A stretch of DNA of 64,000 bases, taken from contig NZ_BJNG01000005.1 in assembly GCF_006539565.1 (NCBI RefSeq), positions 62,001 to 126,000 of the forward strand. Direction: 5' to 3'. The DNA comes from Pseudonocardia hydrocarbonoxydans. GTDB taxonomy: Bacteria > Actinomycetota > Actinomycetes > Mycobacteriales > Pseudonocardiaceae. Every line of letters begins with the position of its first letter. The first letter of the stretch is position 1. The notes below the pieces were generated by a model. It made no database searches and was not told the origin of the DNA. It saw only the letters and a program-made list of their open reading frames with translations. The position numbers were made by a program, and so were the translations under genes. Below, in pieces: positions 36,386 to 51,927 of this stretch.

Positions 36386-36709
36386 TCAGCGGAGCAGGCC
36401 CAGGTCCGCCATCACCACCGCGCTCAGGTTGGGCGTGCGCGAGCAGGTGGGCCGGACCTGCGGCCCGCCCGAGTAGTACCGGCGCAGCTCCTCGGAGAAC
36501 GCGACGGCGCCGGTTTCCGGCGACCGGTCCCCCAGCAGCGCCACGGCCACCTCCAGCTCGCGGCGCGACAGCTCCGCCCGCCAGAGCCGCTGGGTGACGA
36601 CGAGCGCGTCGCCAACCGCCTCCACCCGCATCGTCGACGACCCGGCCAGCGGCGCCACCGCCCGGCCGCCGCGGTAGCGCTGCTGGACCGCGGACCAGTC
36701 CAGGGTCAT
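36386..36709 (-). CDS. small cluster protein C (paralogue of A and B)
   Basis: A 107-residue protein beginning MTLDWSAVQQRYRGGRAVAP. It shares with proteins A and B the start pattern W-x2-V-x2-RY-x2-G, the middle motif RLWRAELSRRELE, and a C-terminal DLGLLR. It is the last gene of the operon and the most diverged of the three, with an insertion (GGPQVRPTCSRTPN). Its start overlaps the stop of protein B by ATGA. No known domain is recognised. It is probably a small subunit or adaptor of the FtsZ-like proteins. Confidence 0.75.
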   Translation of the reverse strand: MTLDWSAVQQRYRGGRAVAPLAGSSTMRVEAVGDALVVTQRLWRAELSRRELEVAVALLGDRSPETGAVAFSEELRRYYSGGPQVRPTCSRTPNLSAVVMADLGLLR

Positions 36710-37005
36710 TCCAGGAACCCCAGGTCCTTGAGCACGTGTGCTGCCGAGGTCGCCCGCACGTCCGCCACCAGCGCCCGGTACTCCTCGACGAACAGCCCGG
36801 CGTGGCGACTGATCGCGTCGGACTCGATGAGGCCGGCGGCCTTCTCCAGGTGCTCGCGGGCCAGCGTGTCGCGCCACAGCGAGTGCCGGATGTGCACCCC
36901 GGCGTCGTCGACGCCGGTGATCTCGAGCATCTTCCCGCCCGCCACGGTCGGGATCCGCTTCCCGCCGCCGTAGCGGTCCACGACGCGCTGCCAGTCCAGT
37001 GGCAT
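36706..37005 (-). CDS. small cluster protein B
   Basis: A 99-residue protein beginning MPLDWQRVVDRYGGGKRIPT. The conserved core is SLWRDTLAREHLEKAAGL, and the last residues KDLGFLE match protein A's KDLGYLD. The first half looks beta-rich and the second helical. It lies 2 bp after the sigma-like gene and overlaps protein C. The role is unknown; the repeated occurrence of this family in one operon suggests different partners for otherwise similar subunits. Confidence 0.8.
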   Translation of the reverse strand: MPLDWQRVVDRYGGGKRIPTVAGGKMLEITGVDDAGVHIRHSLWRDTLAREHLEKAAGLIESDAISRHAGLFVEEYRALVADVRATSAAHVLKDLGFLE

Positions 37006-37007
37006 CC

Positions 37008-37559
37008 TCAGCCCCTCTCCACACGGGCCGGCGCCAGGCCGGGCCGCACCAGTTCCCCCAGGTCCGCGAGCATCGCCTCGTGCCGGTACTCCGCGGCGGC
37101 CCCGTCGCAGGACAGCACCGCTGCCAGTTCCTCGACGTCGCCGCCGCGCAGGCACGTCACGACGAACGCCGCGCGGTGCTCCGCTGGCAGGCCCCCGACC
37201 CGGTCGCGCAGCTCGGGCCAGCCGCACACCGACACCAGCTCACCCGCGTCGGCCACGGCGATCAGCCCCTCGGCCAGCTTCGCGATGCGGCCGGAGAACG
37301 GCAGCCCGAAGTACCGGAAGACCGCGGGCCGCGCCACCATCCCCGCGACGACCTGCACACCCACCTGCTCGGCCAGGGACGGGTCGACGAGGCGGTGGGT
37401 GCAGGTGAACCGCACGGCCTCGAACAGCGCGCCCAACCGGTCGAGCCACTCGTCGAACTCCGGTGCGAACTCGGCCCCCTCCGGCGCGGGGTCCGGGTCG
37501 ACGGGGGCGGGGCCCTCCGCGGAGGCGGTCGGGCCGTGACCACCGGCGGTGCTGGTCAT
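37008..37559 (-). CDS. degenerate ECF-sigma-like protein in the FtsZ-like cluster
   Basis: A 183-residue acidic protein. The Pro/Ala/Gly-rich first 30 residues are followed by a helical domain. FTCTHRLVDPSLAEQVGV and PFSGRIAKLAEGLIA resemble sigma region 2. LPAEHRAAFVVTCLRGGDVE then EELAAVLSCDGAAAEYRHEA resemble the region 4 helix-turn-helix of ECF sigma factors. Key basic DNA-contact residues are reduced, so it may be an inactive or adaptor version. This reading is by eye only. A strong hairpin separates it from the upstream FtsZ-like gene. Confidence 0.5.
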   Translation of the reverse strand: MTSTAGGHGPTASAEGPAPVDPDPAPEGAEFAPEFDEWLDRLGALFEAVRFTCTHRLVDPSLAEQVGVQVVAGMVARPAVFRYFGLPFSGRIAKLAEGLIAVADAGELVSVCGWPELRDRVGGLPAEHRAAFVVTCLRGGDVEELAAVLSCDGAAAEYRHEAMLADLGELVRPGLAPARVERG

Positions 37560-37580
37560 CGCGGGTCTCCAGACGGGGGT

Positions 37581-37612
37581 GGAGCCGGCCGGCGGGTGCG
37601 CCGGCCGGCTCC
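37581..37612 (-). terminator. 14-bp perfect hairpin inside the FtsZ-like operon
   Basis: The arms GGAGCCGGCCGGCG (37581-37594) and 37599-37612 are exact complements with a GGTG loop, located 5 nt past the stop of FtsZ-like gene 1. It is likely a partial terminator or 3'-end stabiliser that lowers expression of the downstream sigma-like and small genes. Confidence 0.8.
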
Positions 37613-37617
37613 GGCGG

Positions 37618-39273
37618 TCAGGGGGTCGGGACGACCGTCTTGACCATCATCGAGATGTGGTCGGCCTGCACCACGGTGACGTCCTTGGAGACCGGTGCGT
37701 CGCCGCGGATGGCCTCGTGCGGGATGACCACCCAGCACGCGCAGCCCCAGATGCACTCGCCCGCCATGCCGTCGAACCGGATGGACTGCTCGGACAGCAT
37801 CACGCCGAGGTCGAGCAGCCAGGAGTGCATCATCAGCTTCTCGTCCCACGACTCGATCGCGTCGTAGGCGTCACGGGCGGCGTAGAAGGCCGTGAAGTCC
37901 GTCTTCGCCACCCCCGGGATGATGATGTTCGAGTACGCCGTGAGCTCGTCGAAGAACTCCCCGACCGAGGTGTTGACCGTGCCGTCGTCCCCGTCGAGCA
38001 CGAACGTCTGGAGGGTCTCCCTGAGCTTGGTCTCCAGACCCTCGTTCCACAGCTCGCGCGGGGCCACCGTGTGCGCCTCGACGTAGTCGGTCTTGAAGCC
38101 CTCCTTCAGGCCCGACCACTGCGGGATGTAGCCGATCCACTTGCTGACGACCTCGCGCCACTTGCTGCGCGGCTCGCCGGGCAGCACCTCCACGCCGGGG
38201 TGGGTGTACTTGGCGACGTCGAAGACCGTCCAGGTGCGGTCGCCGGAGATGTTGCGCTCGTGCGGGGCCCCGGTGAAGCCCATCGGGCGCAGCATCTTGA
38301 ACAGCAGGCGGCCGTAGTCCTGCACCACGAAACGCATGAACGAGTCGTTGACGAACTTCCGGGTGACGCCCTTGCGGAGCGCGTCGCGGATCGCCGGCTT
38401 CCCGGTCTTGGTGTACGACCCCAGCCGCTGCCAGGAGTGTTCCTGGGGCAGGGCGAAGAAGCCCCCGGTGAACGGGTTCTTGTACAGGTCGCCCCACACC
38501 GCCATGACGCCCTGGTTCTTGGCGTCGTCGAGCATGCAGTCGATCTCGTTCATCGTGGGGTAGAGCGCGGCGGCACCGCCGGCGTGGGGCTCGTCGCCGG
38601 AGAACGGCATCGCCGCCACCCCGACGACCGGCAGCCGCCGCCCGAGCTTGACGTTGGACAGGTGCCGCGCCAGGTCCACGACCATGCCCGAGCCGGTACC
38701 GCCGGACATCGAGAAGAACACCAGCACCAGCGAGGGCAGCTTGGTCCGGTTGATGCTCGCGACGAAGTCGTCGAGCTCCTTCTCCAGCGACTTGTCCTCG
38801 CCGTAGTAGTAGTGCCCGTAGATGGCCTTGGAGATGGCCCGCGGGACGGAGTCCCCGGCCTTGGGCAGCTCGGTGTCACTGGGCAGCCACGGCTCGTAGT
38901 TCGGGTTCCAGTAGTACCGGGGGTACTCCATCTTCAGGTACTCGCGCCAGCGGTTGAGGCTGGTCATGAGGTCCTTCTTCTCCGGCACGTCCAGCGAGAC
39001 CGTGCGGACCTGGGCCCGGTCGGTCGGGATGCCGCGCTCGGTGAGCCGCTGGTCGAAGCCGTTCACGTACTCCTTGAGCTCGTGCTGGTCCTGGTCGCCG
39101 ATGTCGATCGACAGGCCCGTGAACCGCGCGCGCGGGTCCTCCAGCATGTCCTCGATCTCGCCGGTGCGCAGCAGCGCCTCCACCATGTAGGCACCGGTCT
39201 TGCCGATACCGATCGCGTGGATGCAGTGCGGCGACTGGGCGCCGGTCGCGCTGTGGTACATGGACAGTGCCAT
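37618..39273 (-). CDS. tubulin/FtsZ-like GTPase-fold protein 1 (intact signature)
   Basis: A 551-residue protein whose N-terminal half follows the FtsZ/tubulin plan. It has a T1-like loop IHAIGIGKTGAYMVEALL (residues 18-35), a second strand with acidic loop LSIDIGDQ, the glycine-rich signature VFFSMSGGTGSGMVVDLARH (185-204), and a following strand LPVVGVAAMPF. A T7-like acidic stretch NEIDCMLDDAKNQGV comes next. The C-terminal half is unlike FtsZ and ends with FDGMAGECIWGCACWVV, with Cys at 507, 511 and 513. AGGAGG precedes the ATG. It may polymerise or serve as a nucleotide-binding enzyme subunit. The fold assignment is good; the function is unknown. Confidence 0.75.
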   Translation of the reverse strand: MALSMYHSATGAQSPHCIHAIGIGKTGAYMVEALLRTGEIEDMLEDPRARFTGLSIDIGDQDQHELKEYVNGFDQRLTERGIPTDRAQVRTVSLDVPEKKDLMTSLNRWREYLKMEYPRYYWNPNYEPWLPSDTELPKAGDSVPRAISKAIYGHYYYGEDKSLEKELDDFVASINRTKLPSLVLVFFSMSGGTGSGMVVDLARHLSNVKLGRRLPVVGVAAMPFSGDEPHAGGAAALYPTMNEIDCMLDDAKNQGVMAVWGDLYKNPFTGGFFALPQEHSWQRLGSYTKTGKPAIRDALRKGVTRKFVNDSFMRFVVQDYGRLLFKMLRPMGFTGAPHERNISGDRTWTVFDVAKYTHPGVEVLPGEPRSKWREVVSKWIGYIPQWSGLKEGFKTDYVEAHTVAPRELWNEGLETKLRETLQTFVLDGDDGTVNTSVGEFFDELTAYSNIIIPGVAKTDFTAFYAARDAYDAIESWDEKLMMHSWLLDLGVMLSEQSIRFDGMAGECIWGCACWVVIPHEAIRGDAPVSKDVTVVQADHISMMVKTVVPTP

Positions 39274-39349
39274 TGCGTTCCTCCTGCTTCGGAAATGCGG
39301 CTGGATTCGGGCGTGCGGCAGCGCGGTAGGGCCGGGGACGGCGGCCGGG

Positions 39350-39649
39350 TCAGTCGAGGTAGCCGAGGTCCTTGAGGATCGTGGCGGCGGTCGTCGGTCG
39401 TTCGTCGGCGATGTAGGTGCGGTAGTGGTCGATCACGTCGCCGTAGTTGCGGGTCATGCGGCCCTCGTCGAGCAGCGCCATCGCCTTCTCGAGGTGGGCC
39501 CGGGTGATCCTGTCCTGCCAGAGGCGGTGCGAGACGTAGATGTAGCCGTCGTCGGCGCCGGTGACCTTGAGCGTGCGCGCCCCCGGCATCGACGGGAGCT
39601 CGGCACCGTCCCGGTAGCGCGCGACGACGTCGGCCCATTCGGTGGCCAC
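39350..39649 (-). CDS. small cluster protein A
   Basis: A 99-residue protein beginning MATEWADVVARYRDGAELPS, with the core RLWQDRITRAHLEKAMALL and the ending KDLGYLD. It is clearly paralogous to protein B. It starts at a GTG one base after the FtsZ-like gene 2 stop and is followed by gene 1, so the order is large subunit, small subunit, large subunit. This suggests a stoichiometric partner of the FtsZ-like proteins. Confidence 0.8.
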   Translation of the reverse strand: MATEWADVVARYRDGAELPSMPGARTLKVTGADDGYIYVSHRLWQDRITRAHLEKAMALLDEGRMTRNYGDVIDHYRTYIADERPTTAATILKDLGYLD

Positions 39650-39650
39650 G

Positions 39651-41111
39651 TCAGGCGCCCGCGACGATGACTGCCTCCGGGACGGCCACCGGTGTCTCGA
39701 CCACCTCGCCGCGGATCGCGGCGTGCGGCACGACCACCCAGCAGGCGCAGCCCCAGATGCACTCCCCGCCCATCCCGTCGAACCGGATGGAGGGCTCGCA
39801 CAGCATCACCCCGAGGTCGAGGATCCACGAGTGCAGGAGCAGCTTGTCGTCCCACTCCAGCGGGTCGTAGAGGTCGCGGGACGGGACGAAGGCCGCCAGG
39901 TCCAGCTTGGTGGCGCGCGGGATCACCACGCTGACGAAGCCGGCGCCCGGCGCGGTCTTGACGACCGGTGGGACCCGGGTGGCCGCGACCTCGGAGATCG
40001 CCGGGCCGACGGCCTTCGCCGCGGCCGTGGCCTCCTTGCCGGAGCCGAACACGCGCGCCTCGGCGTACTCGGTGGAGAATCCCCTGGTCAGGCCCAGGTC
40101 GCCCAGCGATCCGGCGTCGTCGAGGTCGGTGACGGTCAGGATGTTGAGCCACTTGTCGCTCTGCTCCCCGCGGATCGCCGGGTGCCACTGGTCGCCGGGG
40201 ACGGCGAGCCAGTTCAGTGCCTTGAGCGACTCGTAGAGGTCCTTCCCGCCGCCTGCGGCGAGGAACTTCGCGACGCCCGGGGCGACGTCGCGCCCCTCGG
40301 GCTGGGGGACCGAGAAGAAGCCGCCGGTGAACGGGTTCTTGTAGAGGTCGCCCCACACGGCCATGACGCCCTGGTTCTTCGGGGTGTCGATCATGCAGTC
40401 CAGCTCGTTGATCACCGGGAAGAACTCGGCGGAGGGCTCGGTCGGGGTGATGCCGACGCCCACCACCCACGGCCGGCGGCCCAGCTTGATCGACGACAGG
40501 TGCCGGGCGAGGTCCACGACGATCCCGCTGGCGGTGCTGTCACCGAGCGAGAACGGGATCACCACGACCGGGGTCTTGTCGCTGGCGAGCACACCTGCGG
40601 CGAAGTCCTCCATCGCCCGGGTGATCTCCCCGTTCTGGTAGTACTCGCAGTTGTAGATCGCCTTGGCGATGGCGCGGGGCACCGGCTCGCCGGGGCCGGG
40701 CAGGGCCAGGTCGCCGGGCAGCCAGGGCTCGTAGTTCGGGTTCCAGTAGTAGCGCGGGTACTCCATCTTGAGGAACTCGCGGTAGCGGTTCAGCGAGGCC
40801 GACAGCCCGGCCCGGCTCGGGATGGGCAGGTCCACCGTGGTGACGGCGGCCGAGCCGCCCGCCGCGGCCCGGACGGCGGCCAGCGGCTCGTCGCCGATGT
40901 TCACCGCCAGCGCGGTGAAGCCGTCCGGGGCGTCGGCGAGGATCTCGGCGACGACCGCCGCACCGGCCGCGCCCAGGCCCAGCACGTGCAGCGAGAACGG
41001 TCCCTCGTGGTCGCCCGCGTGGTGGACGTTCTCCTTGCTCAGCGCCTCGATGCGGGCGAGCGTGGTGTCGTGGTCGTCGTGTCCGTGCCCGTGGCCGTGG
41101 TCGTCTGACAT
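39651..41111 (-). CDS. tubulin/FtsZ-like protein 2 (degenerate signature, His-rich N-terminus)
   Basis: A 486-residue paralogue of FtsZ-like protein 1. Shared blocks include KMEYPRYYWNPNYEPWLP (residues 115-132), KNQGVMAVWGDLYKNPFTGG and FDGMGGECIWGCACWVV near the C-terminus (Cys 451, 455, 457). At the same place (190-196) where protein 1 has SGGTGSG, this one has GDSTASG, so nucleotide hydrolysis is doubtful. The N-terminus MSDDHGHGHGHDDHD could bind metal. The ATG at 41111 is chosen; a GTG at 41123 adds four residues. An active/inactive heteromeric pair is inferred. Confidence 0.75.
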   Translation of the reverse strand: MSDDHGHGHGHDDHDTTLARIEALSKENVHHAGDHEGPFSLHVLGLGAAGAAVVAEILADAPDGFTALAVNIGDEPLAAVRAAAGGSAAVTTVDLPIPSRAGLSASLNRYREFLKMEYPRYYWNPNYEPWLPGDLALPGPGEPVPRAIAKAIYNCEYYQNGEITRAMEDFAAGVLASDKTPVVVIPFSLGDSTASGIVVDLARHLSSIKLGRRPWVVGVGITPTEPSAEFFPVINELDCMIDTPKNQGVMAVWGDLYKNPFTGGFFSVPQPEGRDVAPGVAKFLAAGGGKDLYESLKALNWLAVPGDQWHPAIRGEQSDKWLNILTVTDLDDAGSLGDLGLTRGFSTEYAEARVFGSGKEATAAAKAVGPAISEVAATRVPPVVKTAPGAGFVSVVIPRATKLDLAAFVPSRDLYDPLEWDDKLLLHSWILDLGVMLCEPSIRFDGMGGECIWGCACWVVVPHAAIRGEVVETPVAVPEAVIVAGA

Positions 41112-41156
41112 CTGGGATTGCACCTCTCTGGTTGATCACTCGGACTGGGGTGCGGG

Positions 41157-41936
41157 TCAGCAGGCGCGGGCCGGCACGGGCGTCGGCCCCGGCCGGCGGC
41201 GCCCGGCCCGGGCCCGGCGCAGCGCGTCGACCGACAGTTCTGCGTAGGAGAACTCGTGTTCCTCGTCGCCGCAGGCGGCCAGGGTCGCGCCGTCGAAACC
41301 GACGATCGTCGAATGCCCCGACCAGCGGTGCGGACCCGACCGCCCCGCCGCGTTCGGGGCCACGACGTAACAGGTGCCCAGCCAGGCCGCCGCGCGCGCC
41401 GCCCGCACCTGCGCGGCGGCCGGCAGACCCGGCTCGGCCTGGTAGCGGACCAGCAGCTCCGCGCCGTTGTACCGGCAGCGCGGGCCGGCGAGCGGGTCGT
41501 CCCGGCTGATGCTCAGGCCGGTGCGCAGCCCACCCGGACCGTCGACGACGTCGGGCGGGTCGCCACCGCGGCCTCCCGGGCCGCGCCGGTGCCGCGCCAC
41601 CACCTCGCCACGGTCGTCGATGAGCACCACGGCGTGCCCGGGTTCGGGGCGGCAGCACCCGCCGCTGGTCGAGAACACCCCCCACACCCCGGCCGTCCGG
41701 CAGGCCCGGGCGAAGATCGCGACGTCCTCTCCGGGCTCGACCAGCGGGCCGGCCTCCGGTGCCGTGCGGAAGCCGTGGGTGCCGTACTCGGGGAACACGA
41801 TCAGGTCGAGGCCGGGCTCACCGTGCGCCATGCCGACCACCAGGTCGGCGATGCGCAGGTAGTTGAGCCGCACGTCACCGCGGGTGCGCGGCGCCGGCAC
41901 GGTGTGGCTCAGCACCGCGACCCCGACCGTCCTCAC
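41157..41936 (-). CDS. aliphatic-amidase homologue lacking catalytic Cys and Lys
   Basis: A 259-residue nitrilase-superfamily protein aligned with AmiE/AmiF aliphatic amidases. Matching stretches are [11 protein letters not shown] (Glu50, the expected catalytic Glu), [42 protein letters not shown] and the SYAELS tail. Where AmiE has YRK this has HRR (Arg118), and where AmiE has IICDDG this has SISRDD, so the nucleophilic Cys is gone. It is also shorter at the C-terminus than AmiE. It is probably a non-catalytic sensor or structural protein. GTGA overlap with fmdA couples the two. Confidence 0.8.
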
Positions 41937-43186
41937 GACGAGACCGCGCAGGCCCCGCGGTCGGCCATGATCGGGCCGGCGGCCGAGGGCGTGATGTCGA
42001 AGTCGAAGATCGCCGTGGGCAGGTAGAGCGAGCAGCAGGCGTTCGGGATGTCCACCACGCCGCTGACCCGGCCCTCGATCGGCGCCGACCCGAGCAGCAG
42101 GTACGCCTGCGGGCCCGAGTAGCCGAACTTCTTCAGGTACTCGATCGCGTTGAGGCAGGCGTTGCGGTACGCGACCGTCGCGTCGTTGTAGAAGTTGGTG
42201 TTCGTGTCGTGCTCCACCGAGATGCCGATGAACGTGACGAACTCCGAGTACCGCGGCTCCACGTTGCCCGGGATGAGGATCGGGTTGGTGGTGACCCCGT
42301 AGGTCTGCATGCCGCCCTTGATCAGGTCGACGTGGAAGTCGATGAACCCGCCCATCTCGATGGCGCCGCAGAAGGTGATCTCGCCGTCGCCCTGGGAGAA
42401 GTGCAGGTCGCCGCCGGAGAACAGCGCGCCGGGATGGTGCACGGGGTAGAAGACCCGCGACCCGCGGGTGAAGTTCTTGATGTCGTGGTTGCCGCCGTTC
42501 TCCCGCGGCGGCACGGTACGGGCGCCGTCGCGGCCGATGCCGGCCAGCTCCTCACCGGTGGCGGTGCCCCCCAGCACGGCGGCCTCCAGCGGGGGCAGCG
42601 CCAGCGGCGGCACCCGGTCGGGATCGGTGGCGATCAGTGCGCGCTCCCGCTCGTTCCACTTCGCCAGCAGTCCCGGGGAGGGCGCCGTGCCGAAGAGGCC
42701 GGGGTGGGTGATGCCGGTGTAGCTGACGCCGGGGATGTGCCTCGAGGTGGCCTTCTGCCCGCTGAAGTCCCAGATGGCCTTGTAGGCGTCGGGGTACTGG
42801 TCGGTGAGGAAGCCGCCGCCGTTGAGCTTGGAGAAGATGCCGGTGTAGCCCCATCCCTGGCCGGGCGCGTCGCCGTACTCCTGCGGCGCCTGCACCGGGC
42901 CGAGGTCGAGGATGTCGACGACGAGCAGGTCGCCCGGCTCGGCCCCCTCGATCGCGATCGGGCCCGACAACATGTGGCAGCCGTCGAGGTAGACGTCGCG
43001 CACGTCGTTGGCCGAGTCGTTGTTGCCGATCTGGGAGTCGGTCCACTCGCGGCACTCGATCCGGATCGACGAACCCGGCTTGACGGTGGCCGCCGCCGGG
43101 ATGTCGGGGTGCCACCGGTTGTGACCGGGCACGACCTGGTCGCGCATCGACTTGGCCTGGTCCACGCTGAACACGACATCAGGCAC
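41933..43186 (-). CDS. fmdA: formamidase/acetamidase (FmdA family)
   Basis: A 417-residue FmdA/AmdA-family amidase that hydrolyses formamide or acetamide to ammonia and the acid. Diagnostic stretches are [78 protein letters not shown] and [20 protein letters not shown]. The GTG at 43186 has GGAGG upstream. It is the second gene of the operon and the only member of the cluster with an assignable reaction. Confidence 0.93.
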
Positions 43187-43242
43187 GGCGAACCTCCAAC
43201 GATTCTTCTCGGACGGACAGGGGACGGAGCGCAGGGACGGGC

Positions 43243-43527
43243 TCAGGGGCGGGGCAGCCGCAGCTGGCGGGGGTCGGTCACCCGCCGCTGGACGCGCCCG
43301 GTCCGGGGCGGAGGCGAGGTGACGACGTCGGGTAGGTCGGCGCTGCGGTGCTGCGCGTCGAGAGCGGAACGGAGCCCGGTGGGCAGCGACCGCAGCGCCG
43401 GGGCAGCGAGGACCCGCCGCGCCGGCCGGGCGCACGACGGGCATTCGGCGGGCGCTCCCGACTCGCTCATCGGACGGATCAGGTCGAAGGCCCCGCAGAC
43501 CGTGCAGGAGAACAGGTAGGTGGGCAT
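43243..43527 (-). CDS. fmdB: FmdB-family zinc-ribbon protein
   Basis: A 94-residue protein opening MPTYLFSCTVCGAFDLIRP, with a second pair CPSCARPARRV, the four-Cys zinc ribbon of FmdB, a putative regulator of formamidase genes. The remaining 50 residues are basic and disordered. A strong GAGGAGG precedes the ATG at 43527. It is the first gene of the formamidase/FtsZ-like operon. Confidence 0.9.
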   Translation of the reverse strand: MPTYLFSCTVCGAFDLIRPMSESGAPAECPSCARPARRVLAAPALRSLPTGLRSALDAQHRSADLPDVVTSPPPRTGRVQRRVTDPRQLRLPRP

Positions 43528-43590: not shown

Positions 43591-43698
43591 CCTCCCGACC
43601 AGGGGAACCGGCAGGGTGAGTGCGTGATCGGGCCCGGCCTGGCGGCCGACGACCCCAGGAGCGATCATGTGTCCGGACCCGGGGGAAGGGGGCGGCAC

Positions 43699-44133
43699 GT
43701 GTCCGTGGTGCGCAGCGACGACGTGCGCCGCCCCGTACCGCTGGGCGACCTCGTGGGCCGCGTCGCGTACCGGATGACCCGTGAGGTCGAGCAGGAGCTC
43801 GCCGCCGCCGGGCTCAACATCGACCAGTGGCGCGTGCTGAACCTGCTCGCCGACGGGGCGGGGCACCCGATGAGCGAGATCGCCGAGCACGCGATGGTGC
43901 CCGCGCCGACGCTGACGAAGATCGTCGACCGGCTCGCCGACTCCGCGATGGTGTACCGGCGGGCCGACGCGGCCGACCGCAGGCGGGTCCTGGTCCTGCT
44001 CTCCGAGCGCGGCCGCGCCGTGTACGACGGGCTCGCGCCGGGCGTGGCCGCCGCGGAGGGCCGGATGTCCGGCGACCTCGACGCGGCCGAACGGAGGGCG
44101 CTGCGCCACCTGCTCGAGCGCCTGGCCGAGTAG
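43699..44133 (+). CDS. MarR-family regulator 1
   Basis: A 144-residue winged-helix regulator. The core is LNIDQWRVLNLLADGAGHPM, then MVPAPTLTKIVDRLADSAMV and DRRRVLVLLSERG in the wing. The GTG at 43699 has AAGGGGG upstream and gives the normal MarR length; the frame is open further upstream to 43624. It is divergent from the fmdB operon and the obvious candidate to control it. It is a close paralogue, of identical length, of the gene at 45092. Confidence 0.88.
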   Translation: MSVVRSDDVRRPVPLGDLVGRVAYRMTREVEQELAAAGLNIDQWRVLNLLADGAGHPMSEIAEHAMVPAPTLTKIVDRLADSAMVYRRADAADRRRVLVLLSERGRAVYDGLAPGVAAAEGRMSGDLDAAERRALRHLLERLAE

Positions 44134-44332: not shown

Positions 44333-44959
44333 TCACCTCGCGCCCCCCGGGTCCCCGGGCGCTCCCCGGCCCCCCGGGAACGCCGTCCCCCGGCCGGCGG
44401 CGCACCAGTCGGCGGTGCGCCGGTGCGTGCCGAGCCCGGCGACGACGAACTCGTCGCGCCGCCCGGCCGCGACCACCCCGAGGGTCCGCAGGGCGATCGA
44501 GATCGGCGCACGGGCCGACACGAACTCCTCCCGTGGACCCAGCAGCAAGGGGCCGCACACGAGCATCCCGGAGCTCCACACCGCCGCCGCCTGGCGGCCG
44601 TCCTGGCCGAGGTATTCGGCCTCGATCCAGGCGAGCGGTGCGCGCACCGAACCGGCCTCCAGCAGGGCGGCCAGCCCGGGGGTGAGCACGTCGAACCCCG
44701 ACTCCGGTCCGGTCAGCCACGTCCGCCTGTGGTGCGCGGCGTCGGGAGTGCCGCCCGGGAGCGGGCCCGTCCCCAGCACGCACAGCGAGGCGGGCGTGAT
44801 CCCGGCGGCCAGCGTGGCGGTGACCGGCAGCAGCCCGAGACCGGGCACGGCCAGCGGTACGACGCGCGCGTCCGGGTGCGCCGAGGCCAGGGTCTCCAGC
44901 ACCGGGAGGGACCCGACCACGGCGGACAACTCGTAGCGCAGGCCCTCGTCCGTGGCCAT
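44333..44959 (-). CDS. hypothetical protein of the amide region
   Basis: A 208-residue soluble protein that I do not recognise. It begins MATDEGLRYELSAVVGSLPV and contains ARVVPLAVPGLGLLPVT, AVWSSGMLVCGPLLLGPREE and EFVVAGLGTHRRTADWC. The tail is Gly/Pro-rich. A consensus ribosome-binding site (GGAGG, 7 nt) supports the ATG at 44959. It has its own TTGACA promoter sharing motifs with the fmdB promoter, and is divergent from the second MarR gene, so it is likely part of the same regulon. Confidence 0.7.
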   Translation of the reverse strand: MATDEGLRYELSAVVGSLPVLETLASAHPDARVVPLAVPGLGLLPVTATLAAGITPASLCVLGTGPLPGGTPDAAHHRRTWLTGPESGFDVLTPGLAALLEAGSVRAPLAWIEAEYLGQDGRQAAAVWSSGMLVCGPLLLGPREEFVSARAPISIALRTLGVVAAGRRDEFVVAGLGTHRRTADWCAAGRGTAFPGGRGAPGDPGGAR

Positions 44960-44979
44960 CGGCACCTCCGGTGTGTCGC

Positions 44980-45007
44980 GCATTACAGTCTATGTGAATA
45001 GTGTCAA
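44980..45007 (-). promoter_or_regulatory. promoter of the 208-residue gene
   Basis: Reading minus, TTGACA (45007-45002), 16 nt, TAATGC (44985-44980). On the plus strand TTACAGTC (44983-44990) and ATAGTGTCA (44998-45006) resemble the TNACTGTCA sites of the fmdB promoter. The divergent gene is MarR paralogue 2. Confidence 0.55.
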
Positions 45008-45091
45008 ACGAAAGTACATCGACACGATGACTGATTTACGATGGCGACGTGCGTTCGGCGGACCCGGCCGAGCCGGAACAGGGGGCGCCAG

Positions 45092-45526
45092 GTGACGACC
45101 AGCAGGCCCGAACATGTGGTGCGTGCCCCGCTGGACCGCCTGCTCGCGCAGGCGGAGCGGCTGGTCTCCCGCCGGATCGAGCCCACGCTCGCCGACGCGG
45201 GGCTCACCGTCGACCAGTGGCGCGTGCTGCACCTGCTGGCCGACGGGTCCGGGCGCACGATGTCCGCGATCGCCGCGGCCGTCGCCGTCCCCGGCCCCAC
45301 CCTGACCAAGGTCGTCGACCGGCTGGTCGACGCGGCCGCGGTCTATCGGCTCCCCGACGTGCAGGACCGCAGGCGCGTGCTGGTGCTCCTCTCCGAGGAC
45401 GGACGCGCCACGCACGACCGGCTCGCACCGCTCGTGCGCGCCCTCGAGGCGGAGGTGCTCAGCACCCTCGGACCCGACGCCGCGTTGCTGCTCGACCTGC
45501 TCGACCGGCTCGCGGCCCGAACGTGA
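45092..45526 (+). CDS. MarR-family regulator 2
   Basis: A 144-residue winged-helix protein paralogous to regulator 1: LTVDQWRVLHLLADGSGRTM, VPGPTLTKVVDRLVDAAAVY, DRRRVLVLLSEDG. Both genes have 145 codons. The GTG at 45092 follows an AGGGGG-type site. It is divergent from the 208-residue gene and convergent with the AmiC-like gene, so each paralogue guards one divergent promoter of the amide region. Confidence 0.88.
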   Translation: MTTSRPEHVVRAPLDRLLAQAERLVSRRIEPTLADAGLTVDQWRVLHLLADGSGRTMSAIAAAVAVPGPTLTKVVDRLVDAAAVYRLPDVQDRRRVLVLLSEDGRATHDRLAPLVRALEAEVLSTLGPDAALLLDLLDRLAART

Positions 45527-45547: not shown

Positions 45548-46612
45548 TCACACGCCGCCGCTGATCTCCGCCAGCACGTCGAACTCCAGGCCGTCGGCCC
45601 GGGCCAGGTAGATGCGCTGGAGCAGGTGCCGGTTCCGTACCTGCACCGCGCCGCGCGGACCCTCGTAGGCGACCGAGTCGGACACGCAGCTCATCGCCGG
45701 GACATCCGTGCTGCCCGCGGCGGCCGCGAGGTGCGACAGCAGCGTGATGCCCTCGAAGCAGGACTCACCGGGGGAGGTGATCGCGGGAGCGGTCGGGCCC
45801 ATCCGGGCGAGGTAGCGGCGCTCGAAGTCCAGCCCGTGCGCGGTGCCCAGCGCCTCGAAGAAGCCGGCCGCCGAGTACAGCTCCTCGGTGTTCGCGGCGC
45901 CCGTCGCGAGCAGCATGTTCTCGTCCATCAGCGGGCTCAGCCGCACGCACCGGTCGTTCAGGCGCATCTCGGTGAAGGCCCGGTTGAACTGGACCGCGTC
46001 CGAACCCAGCAGGAACATCAGCACACCCTGGGCGTGCGAGCGCTCCACCCGGCGCAGGGCCGGACCGAACTCCTGGGTGCCCAGGTCCACGTAGACCTCG
46101 TCGCGGATCTCCGCCCCGACCGAGCCCGCGTACGCCCGGGCCGCCCGCGCGGAGGCCCGCGGCCACACGTAGTCGCTTCCGACGAGGCACCAGGACCGCA
46201 CGCCGAGCTCGCGGGCCATCCACGCCATCGCGGGACGCACCTGACCCGCCGGGGTCTCCCCGGTGAGGAACACCCCGGGGGTGCGCTCACCCCCCTCGTA
46301 GAGTGCGGTGTAGATGTAGGGCACGCGACCGCGCAGCCGCGACGCCACCGCCTGGCGGACCGCCGAGGTGTGCCACCCGCTCACCGCGGACACCGATCCC
46401 GACGCGACCATCGAGTCGACCTCGGTGGCCACCTCCAGCGGCGACCGGCCCCCGTCCACGGCTCGCAGCCGGACCTCCCGGCCGAGGATGCCGCCGACCT
46501 CGTTGATCTCCGAGACCGCCAGCCGGCCGCTCGCCCAGCACGACGGGCCGTAGATCCCGGACGGCCCGCTACCGGGCACGACGAAGGCGACATCGAGCAC
46601 GTCCGTGGCCAT
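45548..46612 (-). CDS. AmiC-like cytosolic amide-binding protein
   Basis: A 354-residue periplasmic-binding-fold protein (Peripla_BP, AmiC/UrtA/FmdD group). VAFVVPGSGPSGIYGPSCWA, INEVGGILGREVRLRAVDGG, GVFLTGETPAGQVRPAMAWM and WCLVGSDYVWPR are typical. It has no signal peptide, as in AmiC, which acts inside the cell as the amide sensor of the amidase operon. No AmiR-type antiterminator partner is seen. GGGAGG precedes the ATG. Confidence 0.85.
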   Translation of the reverse strand: MATDVLDVAFVVPGSGPSGIYGPSCWASGRLAVSEINEVGGILGREVRLRAVDGGRSPLEVATEVDSMVASGSVSAVSGWHTSAVRQAVASRLRGRVPYIYTALYEGGERTPGVFLTGETPAGQVRPAMAWMARELGVRSWCLVGSDYVWPRASARAARAYAGSVGAEIRDEVYVDLGTQEFGPALRRVERSHAQGVLMFLLGSDAVQFNRAFTEMRLNDRCVRLSPLMDENMLLATGAANTEELYSAAGFFEALGTAHGLDFERRYLARMGPTAPAITSPGESCFEGITLLSHLAAAAGSTDVPAMSCVSDSVAYEGPRGAVQVRNRHLLQRIYLARADGLEFDVLAEISGGV

Positions 46613-46752: not shown

Positions 46753-47151
46753 ATGTCCCCCCGCCGCGCCAGACCGGTCACCGACGGCTGCACCGTGACC
46801 GTCTGTCGCGGGTGCTGCTGCGGCACCGAACGCAAGCACCCCGGCGTCGACCACACCGGCCAGGTGGCCGCCCTCGTCGCCGGAGTCGGTGACGCCGGGC
46901 GGGTCCGGGTGACCGACTGCCTCGACGCCTGCGAGCGGTCCAACGTCGTGGTGGTCGGCCCCTCCCCCGCAGGCAGACGCGCCGGGGCGCGGCCGACGTG
47001 GCTGGCCAACGTCCTGCACCCGGAGACCGTGGCCGAGGTCGTCGACTGGGTGCGCGGCGGCGGGCCCGGCGTCGGCGACCCGCCCGGCCTGCTCGACCTC
47101 TGCGTGTTCACGCCCTCGCGCCGGGCCCGCATGGAAGCCGGCGAGATCTGA
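46753..47151 (+). CDS. (2Fe-2S) ferredoxin-like thioredoxin-fold protein
   Basis: A 132-residue protein with cysteines in VTVCRGCCCGTERKHPG and DCLDACERSNVVVVGPS, the four-Cys layout of thioredoxin-like [2Fe-2S] ferredoxins. Actinobacterial relatives are small stand-alone proteins beside iron or cobalamin genes, as here (FhuF-type and cobalt transporter genes follow). The physiological electron partner is not evident. Confidence 0.82.
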   Translation: MSPRRARPVTDGCTVTVCRGCCCGTERKHPGVDHTGQVAALVAGVGDAGRVRVTDCLDACERSNVVVVGPSPAGRRAGARPTWLANVLHPETVAEVVDWVRGGGPGVGDPPGLLDLCVFTPSRRARMEAGEI

Positions 47152-47158
47152 GCAAGAA

Positions 47159-47174
47159 ACTTCCGTTCGGAAGT
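47159..47174. promoter_or_regulatory. palindrome upstream of the SseB-like gene
   Basis: ACTTCCG-TT-CGGAAGT, a perfect 7-bp inverted repeat with a two-base centre, directly before TATTAAG and 14 nt from the ATG at 47189. It has the size of a TetR or MarR-type operator; it could also act as a small hairpin after the ferredoxin gene. Confidence 0.5.
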
Positions 47175-47188
47175 ATTAAGCTGGCAGC

Positions 47189-47596
47189 ATGGACCCCGAC
47201 GTGGACGAGCTCGCCGCGCAGGCCCGCACCGACCCGGCCGGGTCGGACCTCGCCCGGCTCTGGCGGGCCGTCTACGGGCTGGGCCGCTGGTGGCTGCTCC
47301 CCACCGGTGACCTCACCGATCCCCGGCCGATGCTCGGCGTGGCCGGCGGGCGGCGCTACCTGCTGGCGTTCACCAGCGAGCGGCACGTGACGAGGTTCGC
47401 CGACGCCCGCGACGGGACCGGGAGCGGGCGCGACACCGCCGCCCTGACGATCACGCCCGCGGAGCTCACCGGGATGGCCGAGACCCTCGGCCGGTCCGGG
47501 ATCGCCGGGGTCCTGTTCGACCAGGGGGTGCACGACCTGGTCGCCCCGGTCGCCGCGCTGCCGGCGATGTGGGCACGGTTCGGCTCCGCGGAGTGA
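47189..47596 (+). CDS. hypothetical protein, SseB-like
   Basis: A 135-residue soluble protein. The stretch DPRPMLGVAGGRRYLLAFTS and on to ERHVTRFADA resembles the N-terminal part of SseB-family proteins, which in actinobacteria are uncharacterised and unrelated to secretion. The C-terminal part (GVLFDQGVHDLVAPVAALPA) also fits. The start is the ATG at 47189; a palindrome lies just upstream. Convergent with the FhuF-type gene, 7 bp apart. Confidence 0.6.
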   Translation: MDPDVDELAAQARTDPAGSDLARLWRAVYGLGRWWLLPTGDLTDPRPMLGVAGGRRYLLAFTSERHVTRFADARDGTGSGRDTAALTITPAELTGMAETLGRSGIAGVLFDQGVHDLVAPVAALPAMWARFGSAE

Positions 47597-47603
47597 CCGG
47601 GTC

Positions 47604-48377
47604 TCAGCGGCGGGGGTGGGCCGCCGCGTAGGCGGCGGTGGCCCGCTCGAACAGCGCGGCGGTCGTCGACGGCGCCAGTACGGGGCAGCTGCTGCAGTAC
47701 GGCTGCTCCCTGGCCCGGTTGACCGCGGTGCGGAAAGCCAGGCAGCAGCTCCGCCGTCGCACGTACATCCACGGCTCGCCCCCGACGCGCCGGGCGCGCA
47801 CCTCCACCAGGTCGGCCCAGCCGGGCACCCGGTCCAGCCAGGCGAGGGCGTCGTCCACGTGGGCCGCCCGGTCCGCCCTCGGCCAGGACATGTGCAGCAA
47901 CGCGCTCGCCACCGCGTTGGCCACCGCCCCGCGCAGCACCCGGCGCCCGGCCCGAGCCCTGCGGTGCAGCGTGTCGGCGACCGGGTCGAGGTTGCCGGCC
48001 AACAGCCGGTGCAGCACGGCGTCCTCGCCCGCCGGCCCGGACAGGGGTTCCGGCGCGCCGGCGAAGGCCAGCCTGCGCAGCACACCCCCCTCGAGGAGAA
48101 CCCGGACGCGGGCCGGCCGGGGGTCGAGCAGCGCGTGGTCGCGGTGCAGGGCGGCCAGCACCGGCGCGACCAGCCGCTGGGCGTACCGCTCGAACTGCAC
48201 GCCGGCGGCCACCGCGGGACTCGTGGTGCCGAGCGCCGACGCCGCGGCGGCCAGTGCGGCCGGCCCGAAGAGTTCCGGCACCTCCAGCCAGCCGGGCCCG
48301 GTGGGGACACCCAGCCGCGCGACGAACCGGTCACCGAGGGCGGCCACGCCGGTGAGCACCTCCGGCTCCCCCGTCAT
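47604..48377 (-). CDS. FhuF-type (2Fe-2S) iron-reductase-like protein
   Basis: A 257-residue protein with the FhuF C-terminal iron-sulphur motif: RRRSCCLAFRT followed about 12 residues later by YCSSCPV (C-C ... C-x2-C). FhuF proteins reduce siderophore-bound Fe(III) in the cytosol. The ATG at 48377 has GGGAGG upstream; the longer frame adds a low-complexity Ser/Ala tail and is rejected. No siderophore genes are nearby. Confidence 0.87.
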   Translation of the reverse strand: MTGEPEVLTGVAALGDRFVARLGVPTGPGWLEVPELFGPAALAAAASALGTTSPAVAAGVQFERYAQRLVAPVLAALHRDHALLDPRPARVRVLLEGGVLRRLAFAGAPEPLSGPAGEDAVLHRLLAGNLDPVADTLHRRARAGRRVLRGAVANAVASALLHMSWPRADRAAHVDDALAWLDRVPGWADLVEVRARRVGGEPWMYVRRRSCCLAFRTAVNRAREQPYCSSCPVLAPSTTAALFERATAAYAAAHPRR

Positions 48378-48417
48378 CGCCGACCTCCCGGCCCCGAGTC
48401 CCTCGGCCCGGAGCTCC

Positions 48418-48794: not shown

Positions 48795-49691
48795 TCACTC
48801 GACCGCCGCTGACCATGGTGCCACCCGCCCCGTCGCGGCGCCTGTCGACCCGGCCGGGGCGCCGGTGGCGTGCACCACCGCGTCGGTCACCGCGTGCAGC
48901 TCGGCGGCGGTGCGGGGGCGCGCGTCGGACCCGGCCGCCGCGAGCAGGCGGTGCACCGCGGGCGCCCAGGCCGGGCCCAGCCGGGCCGCGCGGAGCAGGT
49001 CGGCGTCGCCGAGGACGGCCGAGGTCTCCCCCGTCACCACCCGCCCGCCGACGACGACCGCCACCTCGTCGGCGAAGCGGTGCGCGAGGTCGACGTCGTG
49101 GGTGGACAGCACCGGGGTCGTGCCGGTGGCGTGCAGCGCGTCGAGGGTGACGAGCAGCTCCTCGACCCCCGCCGGGTCGAGCCCGGCGGTGGGCTCGTCG
49201 AGCACCAGCAGCCGGGGCGCCATCGCGACGGCCCCGGCGATCGCCACCCGCTTCTTCTGGCCGAACGACAGCAGGTGCGTGGGCCGGTCGACGAGCTCGG
49301 TGATCCCCAGTGCCGCCAGCGCCCCGTCGACGCGGGCCCGCACCTCGTCGGGGGCGAGTCCGAGGTTGACCGGCCCGAACGAGACGTCCTGCCCGACGTC
49401 GGCGGAGAACAGCTGGTCGTCGGGGTCCTGCAGGACCAGCTGCACCTGGCTGCGCAGCGCGGTGAGCCCCCGCCGGGTGCGGACGACGGGCGCGCCGTCG
49501 AGCAGCACCTGGCCCGCCGAGGGCGCGAGCGCGCCCGCGAGGAGCCGGAACAGGGTGGTCTTGCCGCCGCCGTTGGGCCCCAGTACGGCGACGCGGCGGC
49601 CGGCGTGCAGGGCGAGGTCGGCGCCGTCGAGCACCGGGCGCCCGGGCTCGTAGGCGAAGCCGACGCCGCGGGCGGCGAGCACCGGCGTCAC
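48795..49691 (-). CDS. cbiO: cobalt ECF transporter ATPase
   Basis: A 298-residue ABC ATPase with Walker A LGPNGGGKTTLFRLL, signature LLSFGQKKRVAIAGA, Walker B LLVLDEPTAGLD and H-loop STHDVDLA. It matches CbiO of the CbiMNQO energy-coupling-factor transporter for Co2+. It overlaps cbiQ by GTGA. The C-terminal extension of about 70 residues (HRLLAAAGSDARPRTAAEL) is longer than in the shortest CbiO proteins. Confidence 0.92.
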   Translation of the reverse strand: MTPVLAARGVGFAYEPGRPVLDGADLALHAGRRVAVLGPNGGGKTTLFRLLAGALAPSAGQVLLDGAPVVRTRRGLTALRSQVQLVLQDPDDQLFSADVGQDVSFGPVNLGLAPDEVRARVDGALAALGITELVDRPTHLLSFGQKKRVAIAGAVAMAPRLLVLDEPTAGLDPAGVEELLVTLDALHATGTTPVLSTHDVDLAHRFADEVAVVVGGRVVTGETSAVLGDADLLRAARLGPAWAPAVHRLLAAAGSDARPRTAAELHAVTDAVVHATGAPAGSTGAATGRVAPWSAAVE

Positions 49692-50422
49692 GCGAGCACC
49701 AGCGCGGCGGCGACGACGGCGGTGACCAGGGCCGCCGAGGCCACCAGGAACGGCACCGAGAGCGGCCGGTCGTCGACCTGGACGCGCAGCGAGCCGGTGT
49801 AGCCACGCAGCGCGAGGCCCTGCTCCAGGCGGCGGGCCCGGTCGAAGGACCCGAGGAAGATCGCGGCGGCCTGGCCCGCGACGCAGCGGTAGGTGGTGCG
49901 CCAGGTGCGGAACCCGAGCCGGCCCGCCTGCGCCTCGCGCACGGTGCCCGCGGTGGCCAGCAGCAGGAACAGCAGCCGGTAGACCAGCGCCGCCACCTCG
50001 GTGACGGCCGGGGGCACGCCGAGGCGCTCCAGCCGCGGCAGGGCGTCGGCCAGCGGGGTGCTGGCGGCGAACAGGACCAGGCACAGCAGCGCGGCCGTGG
50101 CCCGCCCGGCGAGCGCGAGCGCCGCGCCGAGCCCCTCGGGCGCCCAGCGGACCAGCGGGTCGCCCCCGACCGCGACCAGCAGCGGCACCGACCCGACGAC
50201 GACGAACGCCATCGGCGCCCGTACCGCCCGAACTACCTGGCGGGGCCGCAGCCGCAACGGGCCGAGCAGGATCGCCGACGCGGCCAGCCCGACGAGCAGC
50301 GCCCCGGGCCACGGCGGCAGGGCGACCGCCGCCCCCACCAGCCCCAGCGCCAGCAGCGCCTTCTCCCCCGGGTGGCGCCGCCGCCACGGGTTGGTGTGGG
50401 CCAGGGTGTCCAGGCCCGGCAT
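49688..50422 (-). CDS. cbiQ: cobalt ECF transporter T component
   Basis: A 244-residue integral membrane protein (CbiQ). It has about six helices; AEGL-like contact helices ending in DRARRLEQGLALRGY carry the Ala-Arg-Gly signatures that bind CbiO. TNPWRRRHPGEKALLALGLV at the N-terminus is typical. It overlaps cbiN (TGATG) and cbiO. Confidence 0.92.
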   Translation of the reverse strand: MPGLDTLAHTNPWRRRHPGEKALLALGLVGAAVALPPWPGALLVGLAASAILLGPLRLRPRQVVRAVRAPMAFVVVGSVPLLVAVGGDPLVRWAPEGLGAALALAGRATAALLCLVLFAASTPLADALPRLERLGVPPAVTEVAALVYRLLFLLLATAGTVREAQAGRLGFRTWRTTYRCVAGQAAAIFLGSFDRARRLEQGLALRGYTGSLRVQVDDRPLSVPFLVASAALVTAVVAAALVLA

Positions 50423-50736
50423 CAGGTGGGGTCGTCGGGGGCCGGCACGCGCGAGGCCAGGCGACGGCGGGTCGTGAGCGAGCCGAACAGGTAGCCGAGG
50501 AAGCCGGCGCCGATCGCGGCCTGCAGCGCGAACAGCGTGGACGCCGTCTCGGACTCCGGCTCGAACAGCGGCGTGAACCACGGCTCGAAGCCGGGGTTGT
50601 CGGCCTCGATCTGCTCGACGGCCAGCCCGTCGGCCCCGCCGAACTCGGTCTCGCTGCCGATGAACACCAGCGGGACCACCGCGATGACGAGCACCGCGAG
50701 CACGAGCAGCCAGTTGACCAGCGTGGAGCGCGACAT
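50422..50736 (-). CDS. cbiN: cobalt transporter small subunit
   Basis: A 104-residue CbiN with two transmembrane helices (about 8-27 and 68-87) around an extracytoplasmic loop containing GSETEFGGADGLAVEQIEA and NPGFEPWFTPLFEPES. It is needed for Co2+ transport with CbiM. It lies 1 bp downstream of cbiM. Confidence 0.92.
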   Translation of the reverse strand: MSRSTLVNWLLVLAVLVIAVVPLVFIGSETEFGGADGLAVEQIEADNPGFEPWFTPLFEPESETASTLFALQAAIGAGFLGYLFGSLTTRRRLASRVPAPDDPT

Positions 50737-50737
50737 C

Positions 50738-51430
50738 TCAGACCTCCTGCGGGGCGGACGTGGTGGCGGGCCGGCGCAGCACGCCGAGGCGGCGCAGCTC
50801 GTCGGGGCTGACCTTCACCAGCAGCCGCACGATGAGCACGGTGAGCAGCCCCTCGCAGACCGCGAGCGGGATCTGGGTGACCGAGAAGATGGTGCCGAAC
50901 TTGACGACCGAGCCGAGCACGCCCGACGTGGCGTCGGGGTAGGCCAGCGCGAGCTGCACCGAGGTCGTGGAGTAGGTGGCGAGGTCGGCCAGCGAGGCCG
51001 CGAGGAAGACCCCGACCGACAACCCGCCGCCCAGCCTGCGGACCAGCACGAACACCGCGTAGGCGACCCACGGCCCGACGATCGCCATCGAGAACGCGTT
51101 GGCACCCAGCGTCGTGATGCCGCCGTGGGCGATCAGCAGGGCCTGGAACACCAGCACGATCGTGCCCAGCAGGGCCATCACCGGGGGCCGGAACAGGATC
51201 GCCCCCAGCCCGGTGCCGGTGGGGTGCGAGCTCGACCCGGTGACCGAGGGGATCTTCAGCGCGGACAGCACGAACGCGAACGCGCCGGCCGCGCCGAGCA
51301 GCAGCTTGGTGTCGGGGTCCTCGCGGACCTGCTTCACGACCGCCCGGGCCCCGTGGACGACGAACGGGGCGGCCACGACCGTCCAGGCGGCCGCGTGCAG
51401 CGGCGGGAGGTACCCCTCGGCGATGTGCAT
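50738..51430 (-). CDS. cbiM: cobalt-binding S component
   Basis: A 230-residue membrane protein that begins [13 protein letters not shown]. The invariant Met-His N-terminus forms the Co2+ site once the chain is processed or extended across the membrane. [18 protein letters not shown] with another His and about six helices confirm CbiM. It is the first gene of the cbiMNQO operon, preceded by an ArsR-type operator rather than a cobalamin riboswitch. Confidence 0.93.
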
Positions 51431-51500
51431 GACGGCTCCCGGGGGTCGCGGCGTGGACGGTCGGTCGACCCTAGGTCCGCGGTGCCGCGACCTGCAAGCC

Positions 51501-51514: not shown

Positions 51515-51525
51515 TTTGTTGACGT

Positions 51526-51927
51526 TCATGTGACGGAGGCGTCTCCGTGGGCGTGCAGGGCCACCTCGCCCACCACCCCGTCCGACACCACGTCGAGCAG
51601 CCGCTCGGTGAGCGCGCCGGTGACGCGGTAGCGCACCAGGCGGCCCTCGCGGTGCGCCAGCACCATGCCGTGCGCGCGGAGTAGGCGCAGGGCGTGCGAG
51701 ACGGCGCTGTCGCTCATGCCGACGGCGAAGGCCAGGTCGGAGACGCACAGGTCACCCGCGTGGTGCAGCGCGAGCAGGATCGAGAGCCGGTTGACGTCAC
51801 CCAGCGCGTCGAGGACGGTGGCGGCCTGCTCGACCTGGGCGGTGTCGGCGAGCACCGCGGTGGCGTCACAGACCTGGTCGGGGTCGATGACCCGGACGTC
51901 GCGGCGCCTCTCGGGGACCCTGTGCAC
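51526..51927 (-). CDS. ArsR/SmtB metalloregulator
   Basis: A 133-residue winged-helix regulator. LGDVNRLSILLALHHAGDLC and VSDLAFAVGMSDSAVSHALR form the DNA-binding region with a Cys at the alpha3 position. The C-terminal HAHGDAS is His-rich, suggesting Co/Ni/Zn sensing as in NmtR and KmtR. An extra Cys lies in QVCDATAV. The start is GTG 51927. It precedes cbiM, with an SmtB-like operator between, so it probably represses cobalt uptake. Confidence 0.88.
   Translation of the reverse strand: MHRVPERRRDVRVIDPDQVCDATAVLADTAQVEQAATVLDALGDVNRLSILLALHHAGDLCVSDLAFAVGMSDSAVSHALRLLRAHGMVLAHREGRLVRYRVTGALTERLLDVVSDGVVGEVALHAHGDASVT

Follow-up and report, generated by a model that had tools for sequence, protein, structure and literature searches.

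A tubulin-fold protein pair in Pseudonocardia hydrocarbonoxydans as the putative subunits of an acetonitrile hydratase-type enzyme

What two tubulin/FtsZ-like proteins might do among genes for formamide breakdown is the question raised by a minus-strand gene unit of Pseudonocardia hydrocarbonoxydans. The unit lies in a stretch of 64,000 nucleotides (contig NZ_BJNG01000005.1, positions 62,001 to 126,000 of the forward strand), hereafter the window, and its two large genes, designated tub2 and tub1, enclose a gene for a protein of 99 amino acids (aa), small A (Table 1). The initial annotation of this DNA knew of no described role for such a pair and proposed either a cytoskeletal scaffold or compartment for amide metabolism, or a nucleotide-driven enzyme using the tubulin fold for a small-amide reaction. 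Our comparative sequence analysis suggests that the unit is very probably a nitrile hydratase (NHase) operon of the acetonitrile hydratase (ANHase) type, in which tub2 and tub1 would be the two subunits of a cobalt-dependent enzyme, each with a tubulin/FtsZ fold.

Relation to the RHA1 locus and predicted fold of the large proteins

On plasmid pRHL2 of Rhodococcus jostii RHA1, genes for a MarR regulator, a substrate-binding protein, an aliphatic amidase, tub2, a 99-aa protein and tub1 follow one another in this order, and a nickel transporter gene is located past one small gene after tub1. The window proteins tub2, small A and tub1 share 53, 61 and 56% identity with their pRHL2 counterparts, over nearly full length and in the same order. 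In 2007, ANHase was reportedly presented as a novel nitrile hydratase that uses cobalt, and we know of no similarity between it and other nitrile hydratases; its masses, which we take to be 11.1 kDa for AnhE and about 63 and 56 kDa for the subunits, can be set beside those of the pRHL2 proteins (tub2, 514 aa and 55.8 kDa; small protein, 99 aa and 11.1 kDa; tub1, 568 aa and 63.0 kDa). From the gene order, the size of the small protein and these masses, we infer that the pRHL2 locus, taken as positions 163335-166915, encodes ANHase, in which case the pair does have a described role and the statement to the contrary in the initial annotation would be wrong. The ANHase genes of RHA1 are reported to be ordered alpha, AnhE, beta, with AnhE acting as a cobalt metallochaperone (PMC3511329; PMC3680314), and the window order fits this published arrangement of large protein, AnhE of about 11 kDa and large protein (PMC3511329). 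Two further papers report one cobalt, two copper and one zinc per enzyme (PMC3766881) and the growth of RHA1 on acetonitrile, acrylonitrile, propionitrile and butyronitrile (PMC6941271).

Structure prediction bore out the tubulin/FtsZ plan that had been read from the two large proteins, and the confident AlphaFold models of tub1 (predicted local distance difference test, pLDDT, 88.6; predicted template modelling score, pTM, 0.91) and tub2 (pLDDT 91.1, pTM 0.91) both superposed on this fold with Z scores of about 21 to CetZ. VIA-align against CetZ 3zid_B gave Z 21.0 for tub1 (316 aligned residues, root-mean-square deviation 5.2) and Z 20.9 for tub2 (285 aligned residues, 4.3), and each of the Foldseek matches listed (50 per model) was an entry for FtsZ, CetZ, TubZ or tubulin, or a microtubule complex. 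The restriction of the plan to the N-terminal half was not sustained, as structural alignments cover residues 14-535 of tub1 and 38-470 of tub2. Since the tubulin alignments run to residue 534 of tub1 and 470 of tub2, and thus through the C-terminal half, the predicted fold spans both domains.

Sequence profiles gave related results. Window tub1 matched the Pfam family Tubulin_2 (PF13809) with 28.4 bits at a cut-off of 27 and PF00091 with an E value of 1.3e-5, under the cut-off of the latter family, and no Pfam family was matched by window tub2 alone. Among 64 aligned members of both subfamilies, PF00091 was matched by 56 and PF13809 by 55 at E<=0.01. A sequence search of the PDB with tub1 alone yielded nothing better than E 0.72, and profile A1 recovered the FtsZ/CetZ entry 4b46 (E 5.1e-4); no relative of ANHase-type subunits with a solved structure was found in the PDB by sequence. 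The T4 signature GGGTG(S/T)G is retained in 33 of 34 aligned tub1 rows, window tub1 included, and in 20 of 30 tub2 rows, the T4 loop of window tub2 having decayed to GDSTASG. The NxDxxD/E-like motif of the T7 loop, which we take to be the catalytic acidic signature, could not be made out in the loop that follows the long helix, a loop placed by secondary structure only. Window tub1 may bind GTP.

The fold predicted over both domains and the T4 signature of nearly all tub1 rows would also suit a tubulin-like polymer or scaffold that gathers amidases into a filament or compartment, but T4 is missing from a third of the tub2 rows and decayed in window tub2, whereas a scaffold would not be expected to come with cobalt genes, a chaperone of the AnhE type or a conserved cysteine cluster. 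Moreover, in the published RHA1 gene order it is enzyme subunits that occupy the places of the two large genes. With the fold as its sole support, the scaffold or polymer role was rejected and appears extremely improbable. The tubulin/FtsZ plan and the link to small amides held from the initial annotation and the scaffold did not; its other proposal came close, in that the predicted enzyme would make small amides from nitriles, whereas the nucleotide-driven part found no support.

Candidate metal site, cobalt genes and the amide step

Both window subunits carry the cysteine motif GECIWGCACW, an instance of the consensus GEC[IL][WL]GCACW. Of the 43 loci in which both subunits were readable, 33 have the consensus in the two of them, 8 have it in tub2 alone and 2 in tub1 alone, and no locus lacks it altogether. 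For this count, five of 48 loci were set aside as having a gene cut or missing (in one of them, L041, tub2 is without the motif and tub1 ends before the motif position), and L010 and L022, whose partial tub2 covers the motif, were kept. Independent loss at these frequencies (8 and 2 in 43 loci) would predict about 0.4 double losses, so the absence of double losses is suggestive only, on weak statistics. The conserved cluster C-x3-C-A-C, which resembles the classical CxLCSC claw of nitrile hydratases and does not equal it, is most likely the cobalt site. Across the 64 rows, in tub1 numbering, H204 and H358 are invariant and C246 is conserved to 97%, making all three possible ligands for further metals. 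A His-rich N-terminal stretch was seen in tub2 of RHA1 and of the window and in at least five more of the 30 tub2 rows (L032 and L035-L038), a lower bound as some tub2 rows are cut before the true start.

Neighbouring genes were counted in 51 sources, that is, 49 loci, RHA1 and the window, the window being searched over its 64 kb and the loci over at most 10 kb per side, with many contigs shorter. A gene for CbiM, CbtA, CbtB, NicO or CobW was found near the tub2-small-tub1 trio in 38 of these sources, and an amidase or FmdA homologue in 40; one CbiQ match (L002) was left out of the cobalt/nickel count. In the window, cbiMNQO and an ArsR/SmtB-type regulator (48795-51927) share the strand of tub1 and lie about 9.5-12.7 kb upstream of it. 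The whole genome (5.29 Mb) has two CbiM, one NicO, no CbtA and five CobW-family matches, so that by a crude yardstick chance alone would place one in about 3% of such stretches. Redoxin/peroxiredoxin-type matches occurred in 13 of the 51 sources (L001, L002, L006-L008, L014, L025, L027, L029, L030, L039, L040 and L042). Because the metal-ligand cysteines of classical NHases are oxidised (PMC7329996), a redox role of these nearby genes in maturation is conceivable.

In the proposed mechanism, CbiMNQO would import cobalt and AnhE, represented by small A and probably aided by its paralogues small B and small C, would hand it over to the enzyme, where the C-terminal GEC[IL][WL]GCACW cluster is the most likely acceptor. 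The metal would promote the reaction R-CN + H2O -> R-CONH2 on small nitriles such as acetonitrile, and FmdA, standing in for the decayed amidase, would hydrolyse the amide, yielding acid and ammonia, with the MarR, AmiC-like and ECF-sigma-like proteins probably regulating the gene set. For the window, both the nitrile-hydrating activity and the helper roles of small B and small C are what we infer from sequence.

Sequence kinship to classical NHase was rejected, since the alpha domain PF02979 was found neither in tub1 and tub2 nor in any of the 64 family members and no sequence similarity was detected. Classical NHase alpha matches do occur elsewhere in the window genome (C8:14560-15111, C1:43244-43786 and C31:18067-18618), which may therefore hold two unrelated kinds of nitrile hydratase. 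These three matches would be compatible with a nucleotide-driven machine for metal insertion or assembly that serves a hydratase encoded elsewhere, as would the retention of nucleotide-pocket motifs in tub1, the occurrence of CobW at many loci and that of NorQ/NorD-type genes at a few proteobacterial loci. Against such a machine, the neighbour clusters contain no separate hydratase gene that keeps company with the trio, the published order is alpha-AnhE-beta (PMC3511329), and the single pRHL2 record has no NHase_alpha match, a weak control as 14 control genomes were likewise without a match and the window genome does match. We consider such a machine very unlikely.

For the putative ANHase-type enzyme, a model somewhat favoured here is a branch of the tubulin/FtsZ superfamily turned cobalt metalloenzyme, whose C-terminal C-x3-C-A-C centre would have arisen independently of the NHase claw and whose nucleotide pocket would serve assembly or AnhE-dependent cobalt insertion and not filaments. 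In this model the old pocket would be kept in tub1 and be decaying in tub2 of Pseudonocardia.

As noted initially, the amidase homologue of the operon is degenerate: the catalytic Glu is kept, and the Lys and Cys positions, numbered as in Pseudomonas AmiE, are occupied by R and S. Among 36 amidase-bearing sources, 29 keep all catalytic positions, one is cut (L022) and six have catalytic losses in the in-operon amidase (the window, L001, L002, L004, L005 and L018). A close fmdA (at least 86% identity) was found in six sources (the window, L001-L004 and L017), each of which either lacks the in-operon amidase or has it in degenerate form; L004 has an additional intact amidase elsewhere in the locus. 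Thus, FmdA probably displaced the in-operon amidase in the Pseudonocardia group.

The features in which the Pseudonocardia form is unlike RHA1, namely a cysteine motif in each subunit, an FmdA where RHA1 has the aliphatic amidase, and extra AnhE paralogues, could instead point to a metalloenzyme of the same family that acts on another substrate in this lineage, e.g., cyanide, thiocyanate, isonitriles or an N-substituted amide. Cyanide hydration yields formamide, and FmdA belongs to a formamidase family. This explanation appears unlikely in view of the 53-61% identity to the RHA1 trio; in addition, the aliphatic amidase intact in 29 of the 36 amidase-bearing sources suits acetamide-like products, and FmdA-family enzymes act on acetamide too.

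Several observations weigh against an ANHase-type operon. The link between the pRHL2 locus and ANHase is indirect, and the accessible open-access passages on pRHL2 and nitriles do not place ANHase on this plasmid. According to PMC7329996, CxLCSC is present in every known NHase alpha subunit; the motif is absent from the pRHL2 and window proteins, so that either this statement overlooks ANHase or the pRHL2 locus is not ANHase. The self-subunit swapping of ANHase is asserted in the same paper and denied in PMC3511329. A cobalt/nickel gene was not within reach in 13 of the 51 sources, seven of which have full 10-kb flanks (L001-L005, L015 and L018). Furthermore, the replacement of amidase by FmdA is not a strict rule: in L005 and L018 the amidase is degenerate although no fmdA was within reach, and L045 combines an intact amidase with a more distant FmdA.

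Distribution, phylogeny and layout of the gene set

The genome_contigs scan returned 49 loci, two of them (L046 and L049) partial matches, labelled as Pseudonocardia, Actinomycetospora, Gordonia, Williamsia, Mycobacterium, Tetrasphaera, Rubrobacter, several cyanobacteria, Proteobacteria, Paenibacillus and Alicyclobacillaceae. Metagenome bins are among these loci, and one labelled Deltaproteobacteria, with 83% identity, may be misbinned. Fifteen plasmid records matched, 12 of them from Rhodococcus. Both tub genes were present in 8 of 36 same-genus genomes searched, counting the window genome itself (one more had a match of 38 positions only), and in none of 24 same-order genomes searched, a distribution that marks the set as accessory. 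In one same-genus genome, the tub2 match (G022:C44:4564-6018) contains two in-frame TGA codons and may be a pseudogene or a sequence error.

In a midpoint-rooted tree of 34 tub1, 30 tub2 and four third copies, all tub2 proteins grouped in a single clade (support 1.0), and the third copies fell with tub1 in the other (0.82), so that the duplication probably preceded the spread across phyla. Two separate old clades, as seen here, would be expected of a heterodimer. The third copies, tubulin-like proteins of about 420-450 aa without the cysteine motif, come from four proteobacterial loci and branch inside tub1; NorQ- or NorD-type genes were present in three of these four loci. The suggestion that the gene set might be conserved together applied in part: tub2, the small gene and tub1 stay together across phyla, and constant company of fmdA and fmdB was rejected, with a close fmdA in 6 of 51 sources, the window included, and fmdB in 6 of the 49 genome_contigs loci.

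The nine-gene minus-strand unit (43527-36386) has the composition and order given by the initial annotation (Table 1), and half of its junctions (4 of 8), not most, overlap or nearly touch by gene coordinates. Overlaps of 4 nucleotides each join fmdA to the amidase gene and small B to small C, spacings of 1 and 2 nucleotides separate tub2 from small A and the sigma-like gene from small B, and the remaining four junctions have gaps of about 45-76 nucleotides. The likely start codons of tub2 and small B are ATG at 41111 and 37005. The label of the sigma-like protein was borne out by a 13-row profile that matched an ECF sigma factor in the PDB (E 1.5e-5), and its gene was present in 27 of the 51 sources, all actinobacterial by label except one metagenome bin. 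Small A, small B and small C are paralogues, as proposed, B and C being 42 and 31% identical to A, and group with the RHA1 99-aa protein in a single family (81 aligned positions). Two or three copies are the usual number in the Pseudonocardia/Actinomycetospora group, and one copy is usual in the other loci, Rhodococcus-type included. A PDB search with the AnhE profile gave no convincing relative (best E 0.074).

Upstream of the unit, the protein encoded at 44333-44983 has relatives near the trio that form a cluster of 10 loci. Between the AmiC-like gene and cbiMNQO, two small open reading frames (46753-47596, plus strand; relatives in L001, L002 or L007) without a Pfam match, one of them Cys-rich, and an FhuF-like protein (47604-48491, minus strand) were also observed.

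Table 1. Features of the gene unit and its surroundings (window positions unless a locus is named)
Feature	Position	Strand	Basis or remark
fmdB-family zinc ribbon protein, 94 aa	43243..43527	-	TIGR02605 and PF09723 above cut-off
fmdA, formamidase/acetamidase, 417 aa	41933..43186	-	NF045496, 627.4 bits (cut-off 500)
Degenerate aliphatic amidase homologue, 259 aa	41157..41936	-	PRK13286, 183 bits (cut-off 427)
tub2, predicted tubulin-fold subunit, 486 aa	39651..41111	-	53% identity to RHA1 55.8-kDa counterpart; model pLDDT 91.1
Small A, putative AnhE-type metallochaperone, 99 aa	39350..39649	-	61% identity to RHA1 99-aa protein
tub1, predicted tubulin-fold subunit, 551 aa	37618..39273	-	56% identity to RHA1 63.0-kDa counterpart; model pLDDT 88.6
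ECF-sigma-like protein, 183 aa, probable regulator	37008..37559	-	Profile match, E 1.5e-5
Small B, AnhE paralogue, 99 aa	36706..37005	-	Alignment
Small C, AnhE paralogue, 107 aa	36386..36709	-	Alignment
MarR-family regulator, divergent from fmdB	43624..44133	+	PF12802
Unknown-family protein, 216 aa, recurrent near the trio in relatives	44333..44983	-	No Pfam or NCBIfam match
Second MarR-family regulator	45041..45526	+	PF12802
AmiC/UrtA-like ligand-binding protein, 354 aa, probable amide sensor	45548..46612	-	PF13458; below UrtA cut-off
cbiMNQO, cobalt ECF transporter	48795..51430	-	Components listed below
CbiM	50738..51430	-	
CbiN	50422..50736	-	
CbiQ	49688..50533	-	Start approximate
CbiO-type ATPase	48795..49691	-	Start approximate
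ArsR/SmtB-family metalloregulator, upstream of cbiM	51526..51927	-	NF033788 above cut-off
Third tubulin-like copies in proteobacterial loci	L027:14221-15477; L029:14241-15503; L031:14629-15975; L040:14188-15543		

Implications and comparison with known systems

While ANHase activity is already known, a tubulin fold for its subunits was not found described in the open-access literature searched, subscription papers lying outside this search. If the reading is true, the fold would place ANHase in a structural family, point to a candidate metal site and add many new members from several phyla, which may be of use for biocatalysis and nitrile clean-up. To our knowledge, these would then be the first proteins of the tubulin superfamily that mainly perform metal-based small-molecule chemistry, and one could test how the nucleotide site fares once such a cytoskeletal fold has become an enzyme.

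Compared with the ANHase genes of RHA1 (anhA-anhE-anhB), the window shares the large-small-large order at 53, 61 and 56% identity, and RHA1 likewise has an amidase upstream and a cobalt/nickel transporter nearby. The Pseudonocardia form departs from it in the amide step, in extra AnhE copies and in the layout of the cysteine motif: the window amidase is decayed with FmdA in front, two additional AnhE paralogues and an ECF-sigma-like gene are present, and the cysteine motif is found in both subunits, whereas RHA1 carries it in tub2 only.

With CetZ, FtsZ, tubulin and TubZ, the window proteins have in common the predicted fold over both domains and, in tub1, the T1 and T4 loops, although the alignments are only 10-16% identical and T4 is decayed in window tub2. 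Unlike these cytoskeletal proteins, the window possesses a conserved cysteine cluster, a His-rich N-terminus, cobalt genes and a putative metallochaperone within the operon. Tub1 scores above the cut-off of Tubulin_2 (PF13809), but this is a general domain family whose model states no activity.

The classical cobalt or iron NHase (alpha/beta, PF02979) resembles the window system in the proposed reaction, cobalt, a small activator protein, an amidase neighbour and a cysteine cluster, whereas the window subunits are twice as large, have a predicted tubulin fold and another gene order, and carry C-x3-C-A-C and not CxLCSC. The Pseudomonas amidase operon includes amiE, amiC and amiR. Its counterparts are an AmiC-like binding protein near the trio and, in relatives, AmiR- or MarR-type regulators and AmiE; in contrast to that operon, the window has a decayed AmiE, to which a putative hydratase and cobalt genes have been added.

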